The notes under the pieces: model-generated | Told to the model about the DNA's origin: nothing | Database searches by the model: none | What the model saw: only the letters and a program-made list of their open reading frames with translations | Assembly (NCBI RefSeq): GCF_032854445.1 | Contig: NC_088295.1 | Span: 67,921,058 to 67,985,057, forward strand | From: Liolophura sinensis | Lineage: Eukaryota > Mollusca > Polyplacophora > Chitonida > Chitonidae | Reading direction: 5' to 3' | Length of the DNA: 64,000 nt | Program-made: the position numbers and the translations under genes | Shown: positions 42,101 to 58,370 of the stretch, piece after piece | Position numbering within the stretch: the first letter of the stretch is position 1 | How the letters are laid out: each line of letters starts with the position of its first letter

Positions 42101-45100
42101 GATCTGCATGATTCAAGGTCAATTTAAAGTCATCATTTTCATTTTAGGCTCTTCAAAGCGAATTACAATATTCTGACTGAAAATTATGCGGTGATAGGAT
42201 CATATGTTCATTTCTGTGTATCAATATTCTGACTGAAAATTATAGAGTGATAGGATCATATGTTCATTTCTGTGTATCAATATTCTGAATGAAAATTATG
42301 CGGTGATAGGATCATATATTCATTTCTGTGTATCAATATTCTGACTGAAAATTAGGCAGTGATAGGATCATATATTCATTTCTGTGTATCAATATTCTGA
42401 CTGAAAATTATGCGGTGATAGGATCATATATTCATTTCTGTGTATCAATATTCTGAATGAAAATTATGCGGTGATAGGATCATATATTCATTTCTGTGTA
42501 TCAATATTCTGACTGAAAATTATGCGGTGATAGGATCATATATTCATTTCTGTGTATCAATATTCTGAATGAAAATTAGGCAGTGATAGGATCATATATT
42601 CATTTCTGTGTATCAATATTCTGACTGAAAATTTTGCAGTGATAGGATCATATATTCATTTCTGTGTATCAATATTCTGACTGAAAATTAGGCAGTGATA
42701 GGATCATATATTCATTTCTGTGTATCAATATTCTGACTGAAAATTATAGAGTGATAGGATCATATGTTCATTTTTTGTGTATCAATATTCTGACTGAAAA
42801 TTAGGCAGTGATAGGATCATATATTCATTTCTGTGTATCAATATTCTGACTGAAAATTAGGCAGTGATAGGATCATATATTCATTTCTGTGTATCAATAT
42901 TCTGACTGAAAATTAGGCAGTGATAGAATCATACATTCATTTCTGTGTATCAATATTCTGACTGAAAATTATGCAGTGATAAGATCATATATTCATTTCT
43001 GTGTATCAACATTCTGAATGAAAATTATGCGGTGATAGGATCATATATTCATCTCTGGGTATCAATATTCTGACTGAAAATTAGGCAGTGATAGGATCAT
43101 ATATTCATTTCTGTGTATCAATATTCTGAATGAAAATTATGCGGTGATAGGATCATATATTCATCTCTGGGTATCAATATTCTGAATGAAAATTAGGTAG
43201 TGATAGAATCATACATTCATTTCTGTGTATCAATATTCTGAATGAAAATTATGCGGTGATAGGATCATATATTCATCTCTGGGTATCAATATTCTGACTG
43301 AAAATTAGGCAGTGATAGGATCATATATTCATTTCTGTGTATCAATATTCTGAGTGAAAATTATAGAGTGATAGGATCATATGTTCATTTCTGTGTATCA
43401 ATATTCTGACTGAAAATTAGGCAGTGATAGGATCATATATTCATTTCTGTGTATCAATATTCTGACTGAAAATTAGGCAGTGATAGAATCATACATTCAT
43501 TTCTGTGTATCAATATTCTGACTGAAAATTATGCAGTGATAAGATCATATATTCATTTCTGTGTATCAATATTCTGAATGAAAATTATGCGGTGATAGGA
43601 TCATATATTCATCTCTGGGTATCAATATTCTGACTGAAAATTAGGCAGTGATAGGATCATATATTCATTTCTGTGTATCAATATTCTGAATGAAAATTAT
43701 GCGGTGATAGGATCATATATTCATCTCTGGGTATCAATATTCTGAATGAAAATTAGGTAGTGATAGAATCATACATTCATTTCTGTGTATCAATATTCTG
43801 ACTGAAAATTATGCGGTGATAGGATCATATACTCATCTCTGGGTATCAATATTCTGAATGAAAATTAGGCAGTGATAGGATCATATATTCATCTCTGGGT
43901 ATCAATATTCTGACTGAAAATTATGCAGTGATAGGATCATATATTCATTTCTGTGAATCAATATTCTGAATGAAAATTTTGCAGTGATAGGATCATATGT
44001 TCATTTCTGTGTATAAATATTCTGAATGAAAATTTTGCAGTGATAGGATCATATATTCATTTCTGTGTATCAATATTCTGACTGAAAATTTTGCAGTGAT
44101 AGGATCATATATTCATTTCTGTGTATCAATATTCTGACTGAAAATTAGGCAGTGATAGGATCATATATTCATCTCTGGGTAACAATATTCTGAATGAAAA
44201 TTATGCGGTGATAGGATCATATATTCATCTCTGGGTAACAATATTCTGACTGAAAATTATGCAGTGATAGGATCATATATTCATCTCTGGGTAACAATAT
44301 TCTGACTGAAAATTATGCGGTGATAGGATCATATATTCATCTCTGGGTAACAATATTCTGACTGAAAATTATGCGGTGATAGGATCATATATTCATTTCT
44401 GTGTATCAATATTCTGACTGAGAATTATGCGGTGATAGGATCATATATTCATTTCTGTGTATCAATATTCTGACTGAAAATTTTGCAGTGATAGGATCAT
44501 ATATTCATTTCTGTGTATCAATATTCTGACTGAAAATTAGGCAGTGATAGGATCATATATTCATCTCTGGGTATCAATATTCTGAATGAAAATTATGCGG
44601 TGATAGGATCATATATTCATCTCTGGGTAACAATATTCTGACTGAAAATTATGCAGTGATAGGATCATATATTCATCTCTGGGTAACAATATTCTGACTG
44701 AAAATTATGCAGTGATAGGATCATATATTCATCTCTGGGTAACAATATTCTGACTGAAAATTATGCAGTGATAGGATCATATATTCATTTCTGTGTATCA
44801 ATATTCTGAATGAAAATTATGCGGTGATAGGATCATATATTCATCTCTGGGTATCAATATTCTGAATGAAAATTAGGTAGTGATAGAATCATATATTCAT
44901 TTCTGTGTATCAATATTCTGACTGAAAATTATGCGGTGATAGGATCATATATTCATTTCTGTGCATCAATATTCTGACTGAAAATTATGCAGTGATAGGA
45001 TCATATATTCATTTCTGTGTGTCACACTGCTTTTATGTTTACTTGCTTTCAACATTAAGTCTGTCACAAACAATGGTGTCACCTAATAATAGCAGTGCAC

Positions 45101-48100
45101 AGTCTCATGAATACTGCTTCACTGAAAAGTCATGCTCCACTCAATCACACATGACTGACGCCTGTCTGGCCAGTGCTTGGTCTTTCATCTTATGCATCAT
45201 AATTATCCCTTAGAAATGATGACTGTCATGATAATTGTGTGTTAATCAAAACAACCTTACTTTTTTTCTATGTTTCAAATCTTCAAGCACTGTTGTAATA
45301 TATAACAATTAGAAAAGTTTTAAAAAATGCTACATTCACTGGAAAGCAAACCATGCTAAATGTTTTTTCTAAAATGACCTACCAGGGAAAAATCCAGCAG
45401 AGTACTTGTGGAAAGACAGTGTGAAGACTTTGGAGGTTGCTGAAAAGGCATCTTCAACTCCTGAGTAAATACAATAGACAGCGTGTGTATAATTTTATCC
45501 AATGACAATGCCAGCCTATTATAGATGAGGGTCCAGGCTCCTCCAGGAAGCAAGAACCTGATATGTAAGACATCCACAGATGAGTTCTAAGCATTTTGGA
45601 ACACACAAAAGTACATATAAACAGATGTAAATGGAACTTAATACATAAAAAGTATTAAAAATCTGTGAGCTAAGGTGGAACTCATAAGTTACAAAAAACT
45701 GTATCAACATAAAATATACAAACTGAACGCTCTTTCAATTTGAAGCAATAATAAAACTTGTGTACATTTTTAGATGTCGTGACATATATTTATGTATGTT
45801 TTAAACCTGGAACTCATTACATTTACCCAACTTAGAAAAACACAAAAGCAATGCCCTGCCGCAGCCTATACAGAAAACTGATTTGTGAGGATAAAAAGTA
45901 AGTGTTCATACCATCGCCATGATGAAGGTCAAGGTCAATGTACAGGACTCTCTGGTATTTTTCCCTCAATTTGAGAATCCCCAGTACAATATCATTCACA
46001 TAGCAAAATCCAGAAGCTTGATCCCTTAAATACCACATAAAACAAACACTTCTAATATGGTTAAAATATTAAACATCTTTCATTTATTCATTTATTTACT
46101 TGTTTTGAGTTCTTATATTACCCACATCATATTTTCCAGGAAATTTCATTGAAAATGTTGTCAAAATTTTTTGTCCATACAGAACAACAAACTGAACAAC
46201 AAACACACAGGAGGAAATAAATAATATTAATCTTACTTTTTTGCATGATGCCATCCTCCAAACCAGTTAATGGCCACTGTACATTTGCCCTCCATCAAGC
46301 ACTGAGCAGCTGTGACAGTGGCTCCAGCTACAGAGGTAGCATATTCATACACCCCTGGTTCTGCAGGGCAGTCATAGCCTGAAACATTTGAGTGTTTTAG
46401 GTGATTTACTTCAGTAGCTTTGTAACTCTCCCTGTGATACACAGCTCTGTGCCTGCTCATCATGCCCCTCCTCCCCATCCTTGGCTAGTCTCTCTAACAC
46501 ACCCACATACTCCTCACCTAGTCCACACCTCTGAGCCTGCTCATCATATCCCTCCTCCCCATCCTTGGCTAGTCTCTCTAACACACCCACATACTCCTCA
46601 CCTAGTCCACACCTCTGAGCCTGCTCATCATATCCCTCCTCCCCATCCTTGGCTAGTCTCTCTAACACACCCACATACTCCTCACCTAGTCCACACCTCT
46701 GAGCCTGCTCATCATATCCCTCCTCCCCATCCTTGGCTAGTCTCTCTAACACACCCACATACTCCTCACCTAGTCCACACCTCTGGGCCTGCTCATCATA
46801 CCCCTCCTCCCCATCCTTGTTCAGTCTCTATAACACACCCACATACTCCTCACCTAGTCCACACCTCTGAGCCTGCTCATCATAACCCTCCTCCCCATCC
46901 TTGGCTAGTCTCTCTAACACACCCACATACTCCTCACCTAGTCCACACCTCTGAGCCTGCTCATCATATCCCTCCTCCCCATCCTTGGCTAGTCTCTCTA
47001 ACACACCCACATACTCCTCACCTAGTCCACACCTCTGGGCCTGCTCATCATACCCCTCCTCCCCATCCTTGGCTAGTCTCTCTAACACACCCACATACTC
47101 CTCACCTAGTCCACATCTCTGAGCCTGCTCATCATATCCCTCCTCCCCATCCTTGGCTAGTCTCTCTAACACACCCACACACTCCTCACCTAGTCCACAC
47201 CCCTGGGCCTGCTCATCATACCCCTCCTCCCCATCCTTGTTCAGTCTCTCTAACACACCCACATACTCCTCACCTAGTCCACATCTCTGAGCCTGCTCAT
47301 CATATCCCTCCTCACCATTCTTTTCCAGTCTTTCCAACACATCCACATACTCCTCACCTAGTCCACACCTCTAGGCCTGCTCATCATACCCCTCCTCCCC
47401 ATCCCTGTCCAGCCTCTCTAACACATCCACATACTCCTCACCTAGTCCACATCTCTGTTCCTGCTCATCATACCCCTATTCCCCATCCTTGTCCAGTCTT
47501 TCTCACACATCCACATACTCCTCACCTAGTCCACACCTCTGTGCCTGCTCATCGTACCTATCATCCCCATCCTTGTCCAGCCTCTCTAACACACCCACAT
47601 ACTCCTCACCTAGTCCACACCTCTGTGCCTGCTCATCATACCTCTCCTCCCCATCCTTGTTCAGTCTCTCTAACACATCCACATACTCCTCACCTAGTCC
47701 ACATCTCTGTGCCTGCTCATCATACCCCTCCTCCCCATCCTTGTCCAGCCTCTCTAACACACCCACATACTCCTCACCTAGTCCACATCTCTGAGCTTGC
47801 TCATCGTAACCCTCCTCTCCATCCCTGTCCAGCCTCTCTAACACATCCACATACCCCTCACCTAGTCCACACCTCTGTGCCTGCTCATCTCACACTTCCT
47901 CTCCATCCTTGTTCAGTCTCTCTAACACATCCACATATTCCTCACCTAGTCCACATCTCTGTGCCTGCTCATCATACCCCTCCTCCCCATCCTTGTCCAG
48001 CCTCTCTAACACACCCACATACTCCTCACCTAGTCCACATCTCTGAGCTTGCTCATCGTAACCCTCCTCTCCATCCCTGTCCAGCCTCTCTAACACATCC

Positions 48101-50938
48101 ACATACTCCTCACTGTGGAACTTCAGGATTTCTTCTCTGGTCAACTTGGATGGAGGAACAATGCTAAAACAAAAAAGAAAAATTCGGTTTTTCTCCATTT
48201 TCAATATTAATATTAACTGCCTACTTCCATTTTCAAAACTGTGAATCTAAGACTTTCTATATTTTTTCGTCAGTTTTGACACTAAATTTCATTCACATTA
48301 AAGATAAATTTTCCATAGTTACCAGAGGTATTTCAGTAATCCGTAAGCCTCGATCAGCCTGTGTACCATGCATGCCTACAACACAAGGCATCATTATATC
48401 ACATTCCATCAACCAAGAAAAATGCTGATACAATAAACAAACTTATGGGTACATGTGCCACTATTATCTGCTTATAAAATTTCGTAATCTCATGTAAGAC
48501 TTTGCATAAAATTTTCTACATAGAAGTACAAATACTTTCCACGTACTGATGTAGATTCCTCGAGTGAGGTTTGCCAGCAAGTTCATCCCCTTTTCCTTGG
48601 TGAGTTTTTGTGTGTAATTTCCTTTTTTGTGACATATCAGGCGGGCCACAAATATATGATAACCCTTTTAAATATGCAATTATCAAAAATGTTTTAAACA
48701 TAAAATTTGATCTTTCACACACACATTACTTTCATACCATAATGGAAATTTCAGCACAATTTCTGCGCAATACCTACAATCCCAGGCACCCTAATCATGG
48801 CATCACACAGTATACAGAGCCTCTGTACAATACCTACCCTTCCCAGGCACCCTAATCATGGCATCACACAGTACACAGCCTCTATACCATACCCACCCTT
48901 CCCAGGCACCCTAATCATGGCATCAAGCAGTATACAGAGCCTCTATACCATACCTACCCTTCCCAGGCACCCTAATCATGGCCTCATTTAGTACAGAGCC
49001 TCTATACCATACCTACCCTTCCCAGGCACCCTAATCATGGTCTCACACAGTACACAGCCTCTATACCATACCTACCCTTCCCAGGCACCCTAATCATGGC
49101 CTCATTTAGTACGGAGCCTCTATACCATACCTACCCTTCCCAGGCACCCTAATCATGGCGTCACACAGTACATGAAGCTTCTGTACAATACCTACGCTCC
49201 CAGGCACCCTAACCATGGCGTCACACAGTATATAAAGCTTCTCTACAATACCTACACTAACAGGCACCCTAATCATGGCGTAACACAGTACAGAGTCTCT
49301 GTAGAAAACCTCCTCTGCCAGGCACCCTAATCATGGCGTCACACAGTACAGAGCCTCTGTAGAAAACCTACCCTGCCAGGCACCCTAATCATGGCGTCAC
49401 ACAGTATACAGAGCCTCTGTACAATACCTACCCTTCCAGGCACCCTAATCATGGCGTCACACAGTTGCATGTATTCATCACTGTGTACATACACAACAGT
49501 ACGTCCACCTCTCACTGGGCCATATTTTTTTGTAGTGCCCGTCTGATTAACTTCTGGAATGGATTGTTTCTCTTGATATGTCACAATATTACAACCGTTC
49601 ACTCCGCATGGAGCTTGTTCAGGCTTTCCTTCAGAAGAACACACTGGCATACAGCTTTTAACACACGTTAAGGATGTTTGCTTGTCAGTTTCAAGCATTT
49701 TGATACTTTCACAAGCCACATACTCTGAAATATGGTCATCTTTATCCAATTTGCATTCCTCTCGATCATTTGTTAATGCTTTGTTAACACTGCTCAGCAC
49801 ATTCTCCACACAATGTGTCAATACTGTGGCTTCTTGGCACACTTTGACAGTATTTTCATCAAAGACAATATTTGACATTGGTGAAATTGTATCGCACACA
49901 TCTCCCCTTTCATTGGTACAACAGGAATGACTCCCAAATATGTCACTTTCACCATTTGCTTGATGTAGTAAATCATTTTGCATCGCTAAATGTTCACAGG
50001 ACTTCGCACCAAGATGATCATTGGAAGAATATGTAACATCCAAATGTTTTGTTTCATGACAAATTACAGCATTTATTGTGACATCACTAAATTTTGTTTC
50101 CAATTTGCCGAAGTTGTTAATATTGAGGTCACTGTAGAAAAAGTCTGGTGTGACCTTTAAACCCACAGTTTTGGTGGTAAGTTTCTTTTCTTTCATACCA
50201 TGCATCGTCTGTTCAACTGTATCTAATGGAGTTATCTGTCCCTGAAGACTCTGTGCTTCAGGTTCATCCACATTATCTACCAAGTCTGTGGCTGTCTTTG
50301 TATCCTTATCATGCTTGTAAACATTATATCCTTCTACAAAGTCAATGGCCTTGGTAGATTTTCTCCAGTCAACAGAACAGTCCAACTTGAATTTTTTCTG
50401 AACTGGACTTGTGGCAGAAACTGGACACTCCTGAACATGTGTGTCACCTGGCAAGATTTCCTGTCAAATGAATAGTATTCATTTTTACATGAATCTTCCA
50501 AAATATTAATAAATATTTACTTAATAAATTTTAAGAATGTACCCTTTATCCTAATTTTAACTATACTCAGTTAATGCAATGCTCAATCAAACTAATGGAG
50601 CAGCACTAATATCCAAAGATTACATCTCACTCTGCTCAGTTTTATCAGAAAACACTGAAAATAGACATTTAATTTTTCATCTCACTGAGAACTGAAATGT
50701 AATTCTGATTTTAAAAAAAGCAATAATAATACATATACAGTAGCAGAAACTATATCAAAGTGTTCAACCACTACTTTCTTCAGATAAATGTAGAATACTA
50801 ATAGTTTTCTCATGTAAGTTATTATATTTTACCATGTCTCAAATCACTTTCACTCGGTGTTCTATTTCTTTCTGGGGAATACATTCAAATCCGCTGCTGC
50901 TAACGAACAGGCCCATTTATCCATACCAATGAGATCAT
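39118..50938 (-). CDS. HDAC8: HDAC8, class I histone deacetylase, twelve coding exons, long N-terminal extension
   Basis: Exons in order of transcription: 50927-50938, 49432-50460, 48323-48375, 48030-48163, 46237-46378, 45912-46024, 45383-45460, 41668-41776, 41097-41269, 40603-40697, 40262-40371, 39118-39154. All introns are GT-AG with agreeing phases. With the ATG at 50938 the product has 694 residues; human HDAC8 has 377. Residues 327-694 are the deacetylase domain. Zinc ligands D489, H491 and D578, active-site H453 and H454 (in [11 protein letters not shown]), rim residue D412 and catalytic Y617 are all present, so an active lysine deacetylase is expected; known HDAC8 substrates include the cohesin subunit SMC3. 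The position of human Ser39, a PKA site, is Cys349. Residues 5-326 match nothing I recognise. The start is unsettled: exon 1 is open in phase for another 79 codons upstream but without an in-frame ATG. Exons 2 and 4 end in tandem arrays that repeat their donor sites. Confidence 0.93.
39259..39274. repeat. Poly-C run, 16 bases
   Basis: An uninterrupted run of 16 C in HDAC8 intron 11; its length is probably unreliable in the assembly. Confidence 0.9.
39530..39770 (-). mobile_element. Full-length SINE with perfect 13-bp target-site duplication
   Basis: On the minus strand it runs from GGGGCCTCTGTGGCTCAGTC through GTTAGCGCGCTAGCGCAGC to a TACGCCGT-type tail and (AAAT)n. GTGATACAATGAT flanks it exactly (39517-39529 and 39771-39783). 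It lies in HDAC8 intron 11 in the same orientation as the gene and is the best-preserved copy in the window. Confidence 0.93.
40262..40371 (-). CDS. HDAC8: HDAC8 exon 11 (residues 647-682 and part of 683)
   Basis: Encodes [20 protein letters not shown], equivalent to [20 protein letters not shown] in human HDAC8, then [11 protein letters not shown]. The acceptor CAAAAG is weak in pyrimidines. Two donors are possible four bases apart (exon end 40266 or 40262). Confidence 0.85.
40603..40697 (-). CDS. HDAC8: HDAC8 exon 10 (residues 615-646)
   Basis: Acceptor GCTTGCAG, donor CAG|GTATGT. Encodes [20 protein letters not shown] and [11 protein letters not shown]. The Tyr of GGGGY (residue 617) is the catalytic tyrosine, human Y306. 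Confidence 0.95.
41097..41269 (-). CDS. HDAC8: HDAC8 exon 9 (residues 557-614)
   Basis: Acceptor TACTCTAG, donor GGAG|GTGGGT. Encodes [20 protein letters not shown], then [20 protein letters not shown] and LLLLGGGG. D578 in [10 protein letters not shown] is the third zinc ligand (human D267). Confidence 0.95.
41668..41776 (-). CDS. HDAC8: HDAC8 exon 8 (residues 521-556)
   Basis: Acceptor AATACTAG, donor GAG|GTATAC. Encodes [20 protein letters not shown] and [17 protein letters not shown], matching [20 protein letters not shown] in human HDAC8. Confidence 0.95.
42166..45017. repeat. 56-bp satellite-like tandem array, about 51 copies, with 560-bp higher-order repeat
   Basis: CAATATTCTGACTGAAAATT recurs every 56 bases across the whole span; only a unit near 42770 differs in length by a base or two. 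Unit variants (ATTTCTGTGTATC versus ATCTCTGGGTATC; TATGCGG, TAGGCAG, TTTGCAG, TAGGTAG) are not random: AGGCAGTGATAGAATC recurs at 42915 and 43475, and AGGTAGTGATAGAATC at 43195, 43755 and 44875, all multiples of 560. It occupies most of HDAC8 intron 7 (41777-45382). Confidence 0.95.
45383..45460 (-). CDS. HDAC8: HDAC8 exon 7 (residues 495-520)
   Basis: Acceptor TTACTCAG, donor CCTG|GTAGGT. Encodes [20 protein letters not shown] and AGFFP, matching [20 protein letters not shown] in human HDAC8. Confidence 0.95.
45912..46024 (-). CDS. HDAC8: HDAC8 exon 6 (residues 458-494)
   Basis: Acceptor TATTTAAG, donor GATG|GTATGA. Encodes [20 protein letters not shown] and [12 protein letters not shown]489 and H491 are the zinc ligands equivalent to human D178 and H180. 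Confidence 0.96.
46237..46378 (-). CDS. HDAC8: HDAC8 exon 5 (residues 410-456)
   Basis: Acceptor ATGTTTCAG, donor AAA|GTAAGA. Encodes [40 protein letters not shown] and GWHHAKK. H453 and H454 are human H142 and H143. Phe449 stands where human HDAC8 has Ser (NWSGG). Confidence 0.95.
46441..48112 (-). repeat. 84-bp array made of HDAC8 exon 4 end plus its 5' splice site; 20 copies, 19 donors
   Basis: Read on the minus strand, each unit encodes the HDAC8 segment [28 protein letters not shown] and ends with CTAG|GTGAG, the splice donor of exon 4. The donor recurs at exactly 84-base steps from 48029 to 46517, 19 times without loss; the 20th copy, nearest exon 5, lacks it. Copy 1 is the genuine exon end. 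Copies 3, 8, 9 and 16 carry stop codons (copy 8 has two) in the HDAC8 frame. The array fills intron 4 to within about 65 bases of the exon 5 acceptor at 46378. A likely seed is the short match between GTGAGGAG inside the exon and GTGAGG at the donor. Confidence 0.95.
48030..48163 (-). CDS. HDAC8: HDAC8 exon 4 (residues 365-409), first unit of the 84-bp array
   Basis: Acceptor TTGTTTTAG. Encodes [40 protein letters not shown] and RCGL, ending CTAG|GTGAGG in phase 1. Ending here gives the family's usual length (human FHTDAYLQHL... to EYGLG). Using the next donor, at 47946, would add 28 residues in frame. Later donors would include a stop codon. Confidence 0.92.
48323..48375 (-). CDS. HDAC8: HDAC8 exon 3 (residues 348-364 and part of 365)
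   Basis: A 53-base exon. Acceptor GTTGTAG, donor CTG|GTAACT. Encodes [17 protein letters not shown], matching ASMVHSLIEAYALHKQM in human HDAC8. The second residue is Cys where human has Ser39. Confidence 0.9.
48775..49475 (-). repeat. 58-61-bp array made of HDAC8 exon 2 end plus its 5' splice site; 12 copies, 11 donors
   Basis: The plus-strand phrase CAGGCACCCTAATCATGG, or a close variant, begins at 48783, 48844, 48903, 48964, 49023, 49082, 49141, 49201, 49261, 49319, 49377 and 49437. On the minus strand each unit holds the exon end encoding [11 protein letters not shown], then GTAGGT (the exon 2 donor) and about 20 bases of intron. Only the unit at 49319 has lost GTAGGT. The first two units are in frame (60-bp spacing); the third introduces a TGA. 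Unit lengths after that are not multiples of three. Confidence 0.93.
49432..50460 (-). CDS. HDAC8: HDAC8 exon 2 (residues 5-347): N-terminal extension and start of the deacetylase domain
   Basis: Acceptor ATTTGACAG, donor AGG|GTAGGT, 1029 bases in phase 0. Residues 5-326 are acidic and rich in Asp, Glu, Lys, Thr and Cys, with no domain I recognise and no membrane segment or signal peptide. Only the last 21 residues ([20 protein letters not shown] and GR) belong to HDAC8 as known in vertebrates ([20 protein letters not shown]). That a 1-kb exon stays open in both copies of the duplicated segment argues that the extension is really translated. Confidence 0.85.
50927..50938 (-). CDS. HDAC8: HDAC8 exon 1, minimal coding part (MISL)
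   Basis: The ATG at 50938-50936 has A at -3 and is in phase with exon 2 through donor TTG|GTATGG. The same frame is open upstream to about 51199 with protein-like content ([37 protein letters not shown]) but no ATG. An ATG at 51171 opens a different frame (MAGKSTASQLGEKK) that would join this one if the run of eight A near 51133 had nine. The true start is therefore open. Confidence 0.5.
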
Positions 50939-51424
50939 TGTGTTAGTAACTGGTGTCCAGTCTGTTTCGGTGTTGGGCTGAATACTGAAGTCGTACGGTG
51001 TTGTGAGGACGGCGTTAGGAATATCGCCGACATTTAACTTTTCACTAAGATCAATGTTTCTGTAATCTAAAGAGGCGTTTATGGGTTCGACATGTAACTT
51101 ATTTAAGCGATAGTCCCGCCTGCAACATTTTTTTTCTCGCCAAGCTGAGACGCTGTGCTTTTTCCCGCCATACACGTTTCTACCTCCCTTTCTTAAGATT
51201 GCTTTAAGGGGAGGTAATCTTCATGTTTGAGCAGTATTAAAAACTCGCTCATTGGTCTTGTAAAGTGGACATTTTGCTCAAAACTGAATAAATTTGTAGA
51301 AAAGTTTTAACCCGACTGTTCAGCATATAAAATCAACAACAGGAAGTCAAGCGCCAAACTATATCATAAGTTATCTCCCTTACAGTTCCATTGTGAGTGT
51401 GAGAAAAACGTGATCGACTGACTG
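50939..51424. promoter_or_regulatory. Probable shared promoter of HDAC8 (-) and CTP synthase (+), copy A
   Basis: HDAC8 starts to the left. On the plus strand GACTGACTG|GTAAGTGAAC at 51424 looks like the donor of a 5' untranslated exon pointing right, towards CTP synthase. No TATA box is evident, which is common for head-to-head gene pairs. Inference from layout only. Confidence 0.4.
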
Positions 51425-52062
51425 GTAAGTGAACATGTGCCTACAGAAATCCGTATGTTATTAATCAAAGTTTACAGAGGCAGTGATGGAAAATTTGTTT
51501 TAAGTCGAGGCAGATGAATTATTTCTATGCAATTTTTCTGTTGGTGGTGACAAAAATGAACCCGTTCATGAAAAATCTATTGTAGTTCAAATACGAATAC
51601 TGGCGCCAGATATCAAATGATCATTTCCCCGCTCCCCAGTAACGTGCAGTGGTTCCGGTTGTGTGCTGCAAAACTGATTGTATGTGCGGGGTCTTCAATT
51701 TCTGCTTGATTTCCTGGCACTCTGTCAGCAGTCTGAAGAGTTTGAACGTTGAGTTTCACTGAAGGCTTTGTATTCAAACATTAAATTTTGACTAAAATTG
51801 ATGTGCATACTGGCCTACAGACTACATGACAATCTACATATGAGTTATCATATAGGCCCTAATAATGATCTGAGTCAGTGGTACTGGTTGTCCATCACAG
51901 AGTGTTATTTTAAAAATTCCTAAATTCATCAGTGTCGCAATAAGTGTCAAAATTGTAAACTAGTGTACTGTCTATCAAGATGGCCTGTAGATAGTAGGGA
52001 CAGTAATGGTACCATACAATGCATAATGTGTGTTTTTTGTCAATGGGACTCAATTTTTTTGT

Positions 52063-52355
52063 AAAGGACTGCTTCAGTGGACTTGTGGTTAGAGTGTGCA
52101 TCTCAGAATCGGAAGATCTGGAATCAAACCTTGGCTGGGACAAACCAAAGACTTAAAATATGGTACCTCGTTTGGTGCTCAGTCATGTCATTGCTGGAGG
52201 TTTGAACAAGGGAGCAGAGCCATGTCAGGATAATGTGACAGGGTGGGATGTGATGTCTGGTGATGGCAGCACTTCAGCGACATAGATTCACCCTGCCAGA
52301 AGAAGACACAGTATACATGCACACACCGAATGACGACTTCTTGTCATATAACTGA
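52063..52355 (+). mobile_element. tRNA-headed SINE of a third family, copy A
   Basis: Has an A-box-like TTGTGGTTAGAGTGTGC and a B-box-like ATCTGGAATCAAACC, followed by about 200 bases ending CTTCTTGTCATATAACTG. The tRNA-like part is too altered to be a working tRNA gene. The same element is at 56675-56967 in copy B. Confidence 0.65.
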
Positions 52356-52922
52356 AGAAAGCCCCCAAACCCCAAATGTACATAGGCCTACAATTTTTTC
52401 TACATACCATTGTCAGATTAAGTTTCCAAAAAACATCATCACAAAAGGATACTATAATATGGTTTACAGTAAGATTTGGGAAAACCTTTTTATCAGTTTG
52501 CATGGAGTTGATGAGACAAATTGTGAAAGAAAAGTCCAGTCACAGTAACTGTATAATTCAAAGACCAGAGTTTTCACTTTCATTTAGTAAGTTCAAGGAT
52601 TGATAATAGGTAGTACTATTTCCTCTCTTGCAGAAATGGTCATGGAATATTAATTGGAGCTTAACACCGCACTCAAGACTTCAATTTCTGTGACAGTGGT
52701 CAGGTGCATAGAGTTGACTGGTTGTAGGAAACCGAACAGTATCGAGCCAAAACAAAAACACAGCCCCTCGCCACATACATGACAAATTTCTTGAGTTTAA
52801 GCCACAGCTTAATCAAACGTACGGGACCTGGCCTATGGATTAAGAAGCTGTCTTAGACTTGAGTCCGTCTTGATGTTAAAACTACGTCTGATTTAGGTTT
52901 AAGAAAGGTTTGTGATCCTGTG

Positions 52923-53051
52923 CCCAGTTTCATGAAGCTCCCTTAACATTACGAGCTTGCAACTACCATGACGATGTAATGCCTACAGCACTGGTTGCTG
53001 TGGTTGTTAAGTGAACGTATAACGTTAAGAGTGCTTCGTGTAACCGCTGGG
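52923..53051. mobile_element. Small MITE-like element, copy A
   Basis: The ends CCCAGTTTCATGAAGC...CTTAACATTACG and CGTATAACGTTAAGAGTGCT...CGCTGGGG are imperfect inverted repeats. The counterpart in copy B is 57529-57657. Confidence 0.5.
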
Positions 53052-53544
53052 GCCATGTTTCAAGGACACCACATCATTGGTTAAGGTCTCAGTGACTACA
53101 GCAAAAAAAAACACTTAGTCAAACATGAGGAAGAAATCAAAAAAGATAGGATACATTGGTACATTCTAATGAAAGTGACAGGATGGCAATTGTAAATGAC
53201 TATCTTGTAACTTGTAACAAAAGACGTAGTAGCTAGTGGTATGTTATCGGAATCGGCCATCGAGCGCCCAGCAACAGTGGGACATTAATTAATGACATTA
53301 CACATTAATGAGCATATAAGGAGAGATAAAGAGATTTGTTTGTTTTCTGGACTTGTTTTCTGAATTCACCACTATATTTAATGAAATAAAAAAAATGTGT
53401 ACATATTTTATTGCTCGTATGCTAATTGCGTATTTCCTTGGGAGTGTGGCCTAAGCTTTTTCTTGCTCGCATGTTTATTACTGCTTTGGTTCCTGAGGAG
53501 TGTAGCCCAAACTTGAGACAAGGAAGTTAGGTTTACTTCCTCTC

Positions 53545-53744: not shown

Positions 53745-54066
53745 CATGGCATCACACAGTACATGAAGCTTCTGTACAATACCTACGCTCCCAGGCACCC
53801 TAACCATGGCGTCACACAGTATATAAAGCTTCTGTACAATACCTACACTAACAGGCACCCTAATCATGGCGTAACACAGTACAGAGTCTCTGTAGAAAAC
53901 CTCCTCTGCCAGGCACCCTAATCATGGCGTCACACAGTACAGAGCCTCTGTAGAAAACCTACCCTGCCAGGCACCCTAATCATGGCGTCACACAGTATAC
54001 AGAGCCTCTGTACAATACCTACCCTTCCAGGCACCCTAATCATGGCGTCACACAGTTGCATGTATT
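53745..54066 (-). repeat. Part of the exon 2 end / donor array, copy B
   Basis: Five to six units equivalent to those at 49154-49475, with the same order of unit variants. The rest of the array is lost in the gap. Confidence 0.9.
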
Positions 54067-55051
54067 CATCACTGTGTACATACACAACAGTACGTCCACC
54101 TCTCACTGGGACATATTTTTTTGTAGTGCCCGTTTGATTAACTTCTGGAATGGATTGTTTCTCTTGATATGTCACAATATTACAACCGTTCACTCCGCAT
54201 GGAGCTTGTTCAGGCTTTCCTTCAGAAGAACACACTGGCATACAGCTTTTAACACACGTTAAGGATGTTTGCTTGTCAGTTTCAAGCATTTTGATACTTT
54301 CACAAGCCACATACTCTGAAATATGGTCATCTTTATCCAATTTGCATTCCTCTCGATCATTTGTTAATGCTTTGTTAACACTGCTCAGCACATTCTCCAC
54401 ACAATGTGTCAATACTGTGGCTTCTTGGCACACTTTGACAGTATTTTCATCAAAGACAATATTTGACATTGGTGAAATTGTATCGCACACATCTCCCCTT
54501 TCATTGGTACAACAGGAATGACTCCCAAATATGTCACTTTCACCATTTGCTTGACGTAGTAAATCATTTTGCATCGCTAAATGTTCACCGGACTTCGCAC
54601 CAAGATGATCACTGGAAGAATTTGTAACATCCAAATGTTTTGTTTCATGACAAATTACAGCATTTATTGTGACATCACTAAATTTTGTTTCCAATTTGCC
54701 AAAGTTGTTAATATTGAGGTTACTGTAGAAAAAGTCTGGTGTGACCTTTAAACCCACAGTTTTGGTGGTAAGTTTCTTTTCTTTCATACCATGCATCGTC
54801 TGTTCAACTGTATCTAATGGAGTTATCTGTCCCTGACGACTCTGTGCTTCAGGTTCATCCACATTATCTACCAAGTCTGTGGCTGTCTTTGTATCCTTAT
54901 CATGCTTGTAAACATTATATCCTTCTACAAAGTCAATGGCCTTGGTAGATTTTCTCCAGTCAACAGAACAGTCCAACTTGAATTTTTTCTGAACTGGACT
55001 TGTGGCAGAAACTGGACACTCCTGAACATGTGTGTCACCTGGCAAGATTTC
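54023..55051 (-). CDS. HDAC8: HDAC8 exon 2, second copy
   Basis: Same length and splice sites as 49432-50460, fully open. Nine base differences, seven of which change the residue (for example L/R, D/N, Y/N, N/S, C/G, H/R, G/V). There are no downstream HDAC8 exons on this side of the gap, so this is an allelic copy or, less likely, a truncated duplicate gene. Confidence 0.75.
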
Positions 55052-55523
55052 CTGTCAAATGAATAGTATTCATTTTTACATGAATCTTCCAAAATATTAA
55101 TAAATATTTACTTAATAAATTTTAAGAATGTAGGCCTACCCTTTATCCTAATTTTAACTATACTCAGTTAATGCAATGCTCAATCAAACTAATGGAGCAG
55201 CACTAATATCCAAAGATTACATCTCACTCTGCTCAGTTTTATCAGAAAACACTGAAAATAGACATTTAATTTTTCATCTCACTGAGAACTGAAATGTAAT
55301 TCTGATTTTAAAAAAAGTAATAATAATACATATACAGTAGCAGAAACTATATCAAAGTGTTCAACCACTACTATCTTCAGATAAATGTAGAATACTAATA
55401 GTTTTCTCATGTAAGTTATTATATTTTACCATGTCTCAAATCACTTTCACTCGGTGTTCTATTTCTTTCTGGGGAATACATTCAAATCCGCTGCTGCTAA
55501 CGAACAGGCCCATTTATCCATAC

Positions 55524-55535
55524 CAATGAGATCAT
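55524..55535 (-). CDS. HDAC8: HDAC8 exon 1, second copy (minimal coding part)
   Basis: Counterpart of 50927-50938, with identical ATG and donor TTG|GTATGG. The longer upstream open frame is also present, with one replacement (Cys/Phe) and one silent difference. The A-run that decides the start is eight long here as well. Confidence 0.5.
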
Positions 55536-56029
55536 TGTGTTAGTAACTGGTGTCCAGTCTGTTTCGGTGTTGGGCTGAATACTGAAGTCGTACGGTGTTG
55601 TGAGGACAGCGTTAGGAATATCGCCGACATTTAACTTTTCACTAAGATCAATGTTTCTGTAATCTAAAGAGGCGTTTATGGGTTCGACATGTAACTTATT
55701 TAAGCGATAGTCCCGCCTGAAACATTTTTTTTCTCGCCAAGCTGAGACGCTGTGCTTTTTCCCGCCATACACGTTTCTACCTCCCTTTCTTAAGATTGCT
55801 TTAAGGGGAGGTAATCTTCATGTTTGAGCAGTATTAAAAACTCGCTCATTGGTCTTGTAAAATGGACATTTTGCTCAAAACTGAATAAATTTGTAGAAAA
55901 GTCTTAACCCGACTGTTCAGCATATAAAATCAACAACAGGAAGTCAAGCGCCAAACTATATCGTAAGTTATCTCCCTTACACGCCTACAGTTCCATTGTG
56001 AGTGTGAGAAAAACGTGATCGACTGACTG
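55536..56029 (+). promoter_or_regulatory. Probable CTP synthase promoter and 5' untranslated exon, copy B
   Basis: The donor CTGACTG|GTAAGTG at 56029 could splice to the acceptor at 59691 just before the CTP synthase ATG. The rest of the exon has no ATG-started frame of any length. Inference; no transcript data. Confidence 0.35.
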
Positions 56030-56674
56030 GTAAGTGAACATGTGCCTACAGAAATCCGTATGTTATTAATCAAAGTTTACAGAGGCAGTGATGGAAAATT
56101 TGTTTTAAGTCGAGGCAGATGAATTATTTCTATGCAATTTTTTTGTTGGTGGTGACAAAAATGAACCCGTTCATGAAAAATCTATTGTAGTTCAAATACG
56201 AATACTGGCGCCAGATATCAAATGATCATTTCCCCGCTCCCCAGTAACGTGCAGTGGTTCCGGTTGTGTGCTGCAAAACTGATTGTATGTGCGGGGTCTT
56301 CAATTTCTGCTTGATTTCCTGGCACTCTGTCAGCAGTCTGAAGAGTTTGAACGTTGAGTTTCACTGAAGGCTTTGTATTCAAACATTAAATTTTGACTAA
56401 AATTGATGTGCATACTGGCCTACAGACTACCGGTACATGATAATCTACATATGAGTTATCATATAGGCCCTAATAATGATCTGAGTCAGTGGTACTGGTT
56501 GTCCATCACAGAGTGTTATTTTAAAAATTCCTAAATTCATCAGTGTCGCAATAAGTGTCAAAATTGTAAACTAGTGTACTGTCTATCGAGATGGCCTGTA
56601 GATAGTAGGGACAGTAATGGTATCATACAATGCATAATATTTGTTTTTTGTCAATGGGACTCATCTTGTTTTGT

Positions 56675-56967
56675 AAAGGACTGCTTTAGTGGCCTAGTGG
56701 TTAGAGTGTGCATCTCAGTGTCGGAAGATCTGGAATCAAACCTTGGCTGGGACAAACCAAAGACTGAAAATATGGTACCGCGTTTGGTGCTCAGTCATGT
56801 CAGTGCTGGAGGTTTGAACAAGGGAGCAGAGCCATGTCAGGATAATGTGACAGTGTGGGATGTGATATCTGGTGATGGCAGCACTTCAGCAACATAGATT
56901 CACCCTGCCAGAAGAAGACACAGTATACATGCACACACCGAATGACGACTTCTTGTCATATAACTGA
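56675..56967 (+). mobile_element. tRNA-headed SINE of a third family, copy B
   Basis: Counterpart of 52063-52355 in the duplicated segment; not an independent insertion. Confidence 0.65.
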
Positions 56968-57528
56968 AGAAAACCCCCAAACCCCAAATGTACATACAAT
57001 TTTTTCTACATACCATTGTCAGATTAAGTTTCCAAAAAACATCATCACAAAAGGATACTATAATATGGTTTACAGTAAGATTTGGGAAAACCTTTTTATT
57101 AGTTTGCATGGAGTTGATGAGACAAATTGTGAAAGAAAAGTCCAGTCACAGTAACTGTATAATTCAAAGACCAGAGTTTTTACTTTCATTTAGTAAGGTC
57201 AAGGATTGATAATAGGTAGTACTATTTCCTCTCTTGCAGAAATGGTCATGGAATATTAATTGGAGCTTAACACCGCACTCAAGACTTCAATTTCTGTGAC
57301 AGTGGTCAGGTGAATAGAGTTGACTGGTTGTAGGAAACCTAACAGTATCGAGCCAAAACAAAAACACCACTCCTCGCCACATATATGACAAATTTCTTGA
57401 GTTTAAGCCACAGCTGAATCAAACATACGGGACCAGGCCCATGGATTATGAAGCTGTCTTAGACCCAAGTCCATCTTGATGTTAAAACTATGTCTGATTT
57501 AGGTTTAAGAAAGGTTTGTGATCCTGTG

Positions 57529-57657
57529 CCCAGTTTCATGAAGCTCCCTTAACATTACGAGTTTGCAACTACCATGACAACGTAATGCCCACAGCACTGG
57601 TTGCTGTGGTCGTTAAGCGAACGTATAACGTTAAGAGTGCTTTGTGTAACCGCTGGG
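57529..57657. mobile_element. Small MITE-like element, copy B
   Basis: Counterpart of 52923-53051 in the duplicated segment. Confidence 0.5.
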
Positions 57658-58370
57658 GCCAGGTTTCAAGGACACCACATCATTGGTCAAGGTCTCAGTG
57701 ACTACAGCAAAAACAAACACGTAGTCAAACATAAGGAAGAAATCAAAAAAGATAGGATACATTGGTACATTCTAATAAAAGTGACAGGATGGCAATTGTA
57801 GCTAGTATGTAGTGGTATGTTATCGGAATCAGCCATCGAGCGCCCAGCAACAGTGGGATGGGGGTTTGGAGGGTGTAATCTAGGCTAGTGCAATATGACA
57901 TTACACATTAATGAGCATATAAAGAGAGATAAAAGAGATTTGTTTGTTTTCTGAATTCACCACCATATTTAATGAAATAAGAAAATGTGTACATATTTTG
58001 TTGCTCGTATGCTAATTGCATATTTCCTTGGGAGTGTGGCCTAAGCTTTTTCTTGCTCGCATGTTTATTACTGCTTTGGTTCCTGAGGAGTGTAGCCCAT
58101 ACTTGAGACAAGGAAGTTAGGTTTACTTCCTCTCAAAACTAATAACTTCTAAGTAAAGAATTTTGTGATTATTTATTAGGGTTGGTGATCATACACTTTA
58201 CTTTAAGTTTTTATCCTTTTTTTTTTTTTTTTTTTTTTGTGTAAAATATTTCAAGGAGCCTTCAGAAGTTTGAACAGGTTTGAAAATGGCAAATGTATAA
58301 AATGGATAGGATATGGTTATGTAGGGCTAACTGAAGTTGACGCGTGTCCTCAGCATAATTATGTTGGCGT

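Follow-up and report, generated by a model that had tools for sequence, protein, structure and literature searches.

Analysis of a 64,000-nucleotide stretch of Liolophura sinensis DNA, the whole of which is called the window here, revealed a minisatellite of 84-bp units that carries 19 identical 5' splice sites (donors) at the end of a coding exon of an HDAC8-like gene. The preferred reading, to which we give a probability of about 0.7, is that the array is spliced out through the first of these donors (donor 1), the later donors being minor. Under this reading the minisatellite would have arisen from the 3' end of the HDAC8 exon, its unit spanning an exon-internal GTGAGG to the last base of the exon. 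Since the exon end CTAG joins GTGAGG, every new copy would rebuild a good donor. The array would now be removed as an intron through donor 1, the first and exon-defining donor. The copies past unit 2 have lost the open frame, so that transcripts spliced from donors 3-19 would run into a premature stop and would most likely undergo degradation.

The HDAC8-like gene occupies the minus strand of the window, and its catalytic exons were located with a human HDAC8 query. The translated window exons are 100% identical, across the entire query, to a deposited protein of Liolophura sinensis named 'histone deacetylase 8-like' (P0001), the one deposited protein of the species listed and the sole member of its 90% cluster. 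The exon that holds the start of the array (48163-48030) is the third coding exon, counted from the start codon of P0001, and was numbered exon 4 in the earlier note. It ends in ...RCGL G|, and the next exon opens at 46378 with GYDCPAEPG. The intron before exon 46378-46236 measures 1651 nt when counted from donor 1 and 139 nt when counted from donor 19. Positions of the features are collected in Table 1. Upstream of the deposited MQNDLL start the open frame extends to about 50463 (49984-50463), where a CAG is present; this CAG is a candidate acceptor, and the deposited protein may fall short of the full HDAC8 N-terminal extension. Searches of the window with Rfam and ARAGORN gave 0 matches and 0 genes, respectively.

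Table 1. Exons, arrays, donors and in-frame stops of the HDAC8-like gene (window coordinates).
Feature	Position	Strand	Remarks
Preceding HDAC8 exon, coding part per deposited protein	49432..49983	-	MQNDLL... to ...RVPGR
Second array, over the preceding exon's donor	48768..49465	-	12 units spaced 58-61 bp apart (11 spacings); exon ends at 49432
HDAC8 coding exon between the 84-bp array and the second array	48323..48375	-	
HDAC8 coding exon; last 84 bases are array unit 1	48030..48163	-	Ends at donor 1 (TAG|GTGAGG); joined with 46378-46236, translates to a stretch of P0001 without mismatch; acceptor TTTTAG before 48163
84-bp array, 20 units	46434..48113	-	Unit 1 exonic; units 2-20 in the intron implied by P0001
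Nineteen identical donors	46518..48030	-	Last exon-side base 48030, then every 84 bases to 46518
In-frame TGA, unit 3	47890..47892	-	Met by isoforms from donors 3-19
In-frame TGA, unit 8	47503..47505	-	
In-frame TAG, unit 8	47476..47478	-	
In-frame TAG, unit 9	47371..47373	-	
In-frame TAG, unit 16	46828..46830	-	
Next HDAC8 exon	46236..46378	-	GYDCPAEPG...HHAKK; acceptor TTTCAG before 46378

The array starts at 48113, inside the exon ending at 48030, and runs into the intron to 46434. Tandem Repeats Finder reported it at 46440-48113 with a period of 84, 19.9 copies, 92% matches and 0% indels. Cut in register on the minus strand, 48113-46434 yielded 20 units of exactly 84 bp each, the number of copies claimed in the earlier note, whose further statement that 19 units carry the same donor at exact 84-base steps and derive from the end of an HDAC8 exon was likewise borne out. 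The nine donor bases read TAGGTGAGG in 19 of the 20 units (units 1-19), which end in CTAG followed by GTGAGG (donor TAG|GTGAGG); unit 20 in register reads CACAGGGAG and has no donor. In the whole window TAGGTGAGG occurs 19 times on the minus strand and never on the plus strand. Identity among the 19 donors extends across 16 bases. A chance repeat was ruled out by the exact period and the 19 identical donors.

On its 5' side the array begins with an exon-internal GTGAGG (CACA|GTGAGG), which opens unit 1, and therefore the intron side of each donor is copied exon sequence. A splice at this exon-internal GTGAGG would stay in frame and leave an exon of 50 nt, with a poorer exon side (ACA). Scored with a donor matrix, TAGGTGAGG reached 5.68, and nine further donors of this gene ranged from -0.47 to 5.65; donor 1 is a strong donor, and so are the 18 donors that follow it. 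Further candidate donors in the array scored lower than TAGGTGAGG on the same matrix: ATGGTGAGG, present once, reached 5.14, and GAGGTGTGG, present eleven times, 3.29.

Translation of the array in the HDAC8 frame ran into five stops, of which unit 8 has two and units 3, 9 and 16 one each, every stop being unique to its unit; the array as coding sequence in its present state was ruled out by these stops. The exon is open to donor 1 (134 nt) and to donor 2 (218 nt), the latter keeping the frame and adding 28 residues. The remaining 17 of the 19 donors all lead to a stop within unit 3, at codon 92 of the test reading. The earlier note had expected any donor to join the next exon in frame; although 84 is indeed divisible by three, the five stops interrupt the frame, and 17 of the 19 donors run into that of unit 3. 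Its suggestion of an exon length that varies by whole units is not supported, as only donors 1 and 2 keep the frame open. Unit 3 (47862-47945) contains a patch of clustered changes, at about columns 50-56, that makes the first stop.

The donor-1 junction is exact in P0001, which is a deposited protein model and not a junction count. The spacing given by donor 1 fits that of solved HDAC8 chains to within one extra residue, and that of six other HDAC8-like proteins (four from named lophotrochozoans) to within one residue fewer, without a unit-sized insert. The donor-2 peptide was matched by 15 proteins, namely 14 from vertebrates and the open frame P0121 described below, and no protein with an extra unit was recognised among them (three of the 15 examined); a shorter query gave no match from three candidates. 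Protein searches are blind to unstable RNAs. On the preferred reading, donor 1 would dominate in RNA, and the other donors would be minor, their transcripts being removed by nonsense-mediated decay. Test constructs count against donor 1: among duplicated equal donors, the copy closest to the acceptor, which would be donor 19 in this array, tends to be preferred. Direct literature on duplicated equal donors was not found among open-licence papers.

Comparison of the units revealed that the nine donor columns took 0 of 50 inferred steps (binomial p = 0.003; permutation p = 0.014) and that the longest invariant run, 16 of 84 columns, spans the donor (shuffle p = 0.013). As a control, six 19-unit samples were drawn from a donor-free 56-bp array nearby, and their longest invariant runs covered 3-10 of 56 columns. 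These values hint that the invariance of the donors exceeds what plain decay predicts, which would count against the main explanation. The invariance is taken as a hint only, because the steps ignore exchange between units and because the columns were chosen after they had been seen. Donor conservation is not claimed as proof of selection, the control runs reaching 10 of 56 columns.

A reading in which several donors are in use is possible, though we consider it unlikely. Here donor 2 would add 28 residues to the protein, and donors 3-19 would produce poison exons that lower HDAC8 output, with copy number tuning the dose. The identity of the 19 donors over 16 bases is in its favour, as are the donor columns that stay unchanged while third codon positions elsewhere change often. 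The composition of the array, with 72% purine, is enhancer-like, purine-rich composition being linked to splicing enhancers. The UBC gene offers a precedent in that a ladder of its units is visible in RNA (PMC10809524). Set against these points, P0001 uses donor 1 and clusters alone, and the peptide searches recognised no extra-unit protein, unstable RNAs being invisible to them. In ABCA7, moreover, retention of one unit is only about 2% with decay not blocked (PMC5954066).

The VNTR in intron 18 of human ABCA7 is the closest described case (PMC5954066). According to that report, it starts at the donor of exon 18, its first GT being that donor, and has about 12-427 units, which overturns the remark in the earlier note that no described case keeps so many donors. 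Retention of one unit made up 2 +/- 1% of the isoforms measured there, shifting the frame to a premature stop; a block of translation raised the share of frameshifting isoforms, and longer arrays led to more skipping of the next exon (PMC5954066). The chiton array resembles it in being a minisatellite placed at an exon's donor, with many units and a potentially usable next donor that would lead to a premature stop. It starts before the donor of its exon and enters the intron, with a potential donor in 19 of 20 units. The ABCA7 unit differs in being 25 bp, intronic, not a multiple of three, polymorphic and disease-linked (PMC5954066), whereas the chiton unit is 84 bp, was copied from 28 codons, has an identical donor context in 19 units and is known from one assembly. 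By analogy, the chiton array should probably not be assumed silent, because frameshifting isoforms and exon skipping respond in ABCA7 (PMC5954066).

The closest case with an RNA ladder is UBC, described as a tandem array of dual-specific splice sites in which the units, ubiquitin monomers, are kept or removed in frame (PMC10809524). Shared with the chiton array are an AGGT at every unit boundary and a unit that is a multiple of three. If splicing were of this kind, the AGGT at the end of a unit would double as an acceptor, and multiples of 84 nt would be removed or kept. The AG|GT at 19 unit boundaries and the divisibility of the unit by three fit such a scheme, which we nevertheless regard as highly improbable, since at each of the 19 boundaries the 15 bases preceding the AG contain just 5-6 pyrimidines, no AG in the array is preceded by more than seven compared with nine at the true acceptor, and the frame is broken by five stops. 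The units of UBC stay coding; those of the chiton array, with five in-frame stops and no acceptor-like tract found, do not.

Two further systems are related. In human segmental duplications, internal tandem repeats at exon-intron boundaries alter splicing, and 27 intron modifications were counted; the variable repeats average four units of 30 bp, and the boundary cases are read as novel introns (PMC2812944). In the chiton, unlike these, an existing intron seems to have been lengthened. The Rogers model derives intron gain from tandem duplication of AGGT segments, and a fission yeast intron lies across four 24-bp copies (PMC4974935). As in that model, the splice sites of the chiton array come from a tandemly copied piece of exon that contains AGGT; unlike in it, no new intron is needed if acceptor and intron already existed, as is likely. 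An identical case was not found in print in a literature search limited to open-licence papers. What sets the chiton case apart is an 84-bp unit of coding origin with 19 donors that are all identical, donor-spanning arrays being already known.

Analysis of units 1-19 against their consensus revealed 36 variant states. Sixteen of these occur in at least two units (11 synonymous, five residue-changing, no stops) and 20 in a single unit (five synonymous, 10 residue-changing, five stops), a contrast in synonymous share with a Fisher p of 0.017. Random change would give a synonymous share of about 0.21-0.29, compared with 11 of 16 among the shared variants (binomial p = 0.001 against 0.29). In the two other frames only 1/16 and 3/16 of the shared variants are synonymous, so that the excess is found in the HDAC8 frame only. 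The contrast between shared and singleton variants was kept without unit 3, which holds the patch (p = 0.011), and was not significant without units 1 and 4 (p = 0.15) or without units 1, 3 and 4 (p = 0.12). With the near-identical units 1 and 4 left out, 7 of 11 shared variants are synonymous (p = 0.018 against 0.29). The parsimony steps at first, second and third codon positions numbered 8, 11 and 31, values inflated by exchange between units.

These counts suggest that the older variation was filtered as protein. The older units may once have been translated, or may have been copied from unit 1, which was always translated; both histories fit, and the recent changes look free under either. 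An array that was neutral and intronic from the start is not favoured, the shared variants being synonymous in the HDAC8 frame only, although this argument weakens when units 1 and 4 are left out (p = 0.15 for the contrast of shared with singleton variants). A more speculative and rather improbable proposal is that the donors are kept by use. Here the 19 identical donors would compete to set HDAC8 output, with donor 1 and at times donor 2 giving protein, donors 3-19 giving poison transcripts and array length tuning the dose; the mostly synonymous older variation would record past multi-unit HDAC8 proteins, made before stops gave the array over to the intron.

Units 1 and 4 are one base apart and units 2 and 5 are identical, which points to block duplication. 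The pattern is not clean, because unit 3 differs from unit 6 by seven bases, mostly in the patch. The identity of units 14, 17, 18 and 19 points to recent spread.

Evidence on the age of the intron comes from P0121, a 69-aa open frame on a 1779-base contig that matches the next HDAC8 exon at 94% across 40% of the query. It begins in the intron, reads through sequence that by eye resembles the end of the array-bearing intron into the same exon start, and carries no unit. P0121 probably comes from a related chiton and suggests an older intron. Human HDAC8 presumably also has an exon boundary at the place of the array-bearing intron. Other chitons by name were absent from the 120 listed of 7953 matches and from the 15 donor-2-peptide matches. 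Chitons with genomes named in the literature include Acanthopleura granulata (PMC11068029) as well as Acanthochitona, Callochiton and Deshayesiella (PMC12005716).

With 19 donors, 16 identical surrounding bases and equal steps of 84 nt, the array is a natural duplicated-donor experiment. It represents a natural test of the cell's choice among identical splice sites and not a clear new mechanism. Published RNA from five tissues of the species exists (PRJNA973839, about 150 bases per read; PMC11068029) and allows at once a partial test of whether position alone favours the first donor; the remainder calls for long reads, as short ones cannot tell apart units 2 and 5 or units 14, 17, 18 and 19, which are identical, and can hardly separate the near-identical units 1 and 4. 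The array also shows a route from exon end to intron, along which stops accumulate and donors stay.

The donor of the preceding HDAC8 exon sits in a second array, and thus two donors of one HDAC8 gene lie in minisatellites that differ in period and sequence. The unit of the second array consists of exon end, donor region and roughly 26-28 nt of intron, and since its spacings are mixed this array is out of frame. GT is in register in 11 of 12 units; the units were picked by the exon core motif with two mismatches allowed, and their conserved core is thus partly due to selection of the units. The first five units recur in a copy beyond a gap: 49154-53544 and 53745-58134 are direct 4.4-kb copies, 95.9% similar, lying on either side of 200 bases of N. 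Owing to this copy the first coding exon of HDAC8 is present twice; the copy, which does not reach the 84-bp array, is probably the other haplotype joined in tandem by scaffolding.

A possible local joining of haplotypes, together with a depth of 14x (PMC11068029), lends some weight to an assembly error in which the copy number is inflated or the array artefactual. We consider such an error very unlikely, as the gap is 5.4 kb away from the array, which contains no indels, shows variants specific to single units and is far below the average length of the HiFi reads (SRX20411988). These average 8,347 bp, and therefore single reads can span the 1.7-kb array (PMC11068029). The assembly paper names the species L. 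japonica (PMC11068029), and a later correction states that the identification was in doubt (PMC12441733). L. sinensis is placed in Chitonidae by NCBI. A later HDAC8 intron contains a 56-bp array of about 51 copies at 42166-45024; of the 29 spacings shown, one measures 57 bases.
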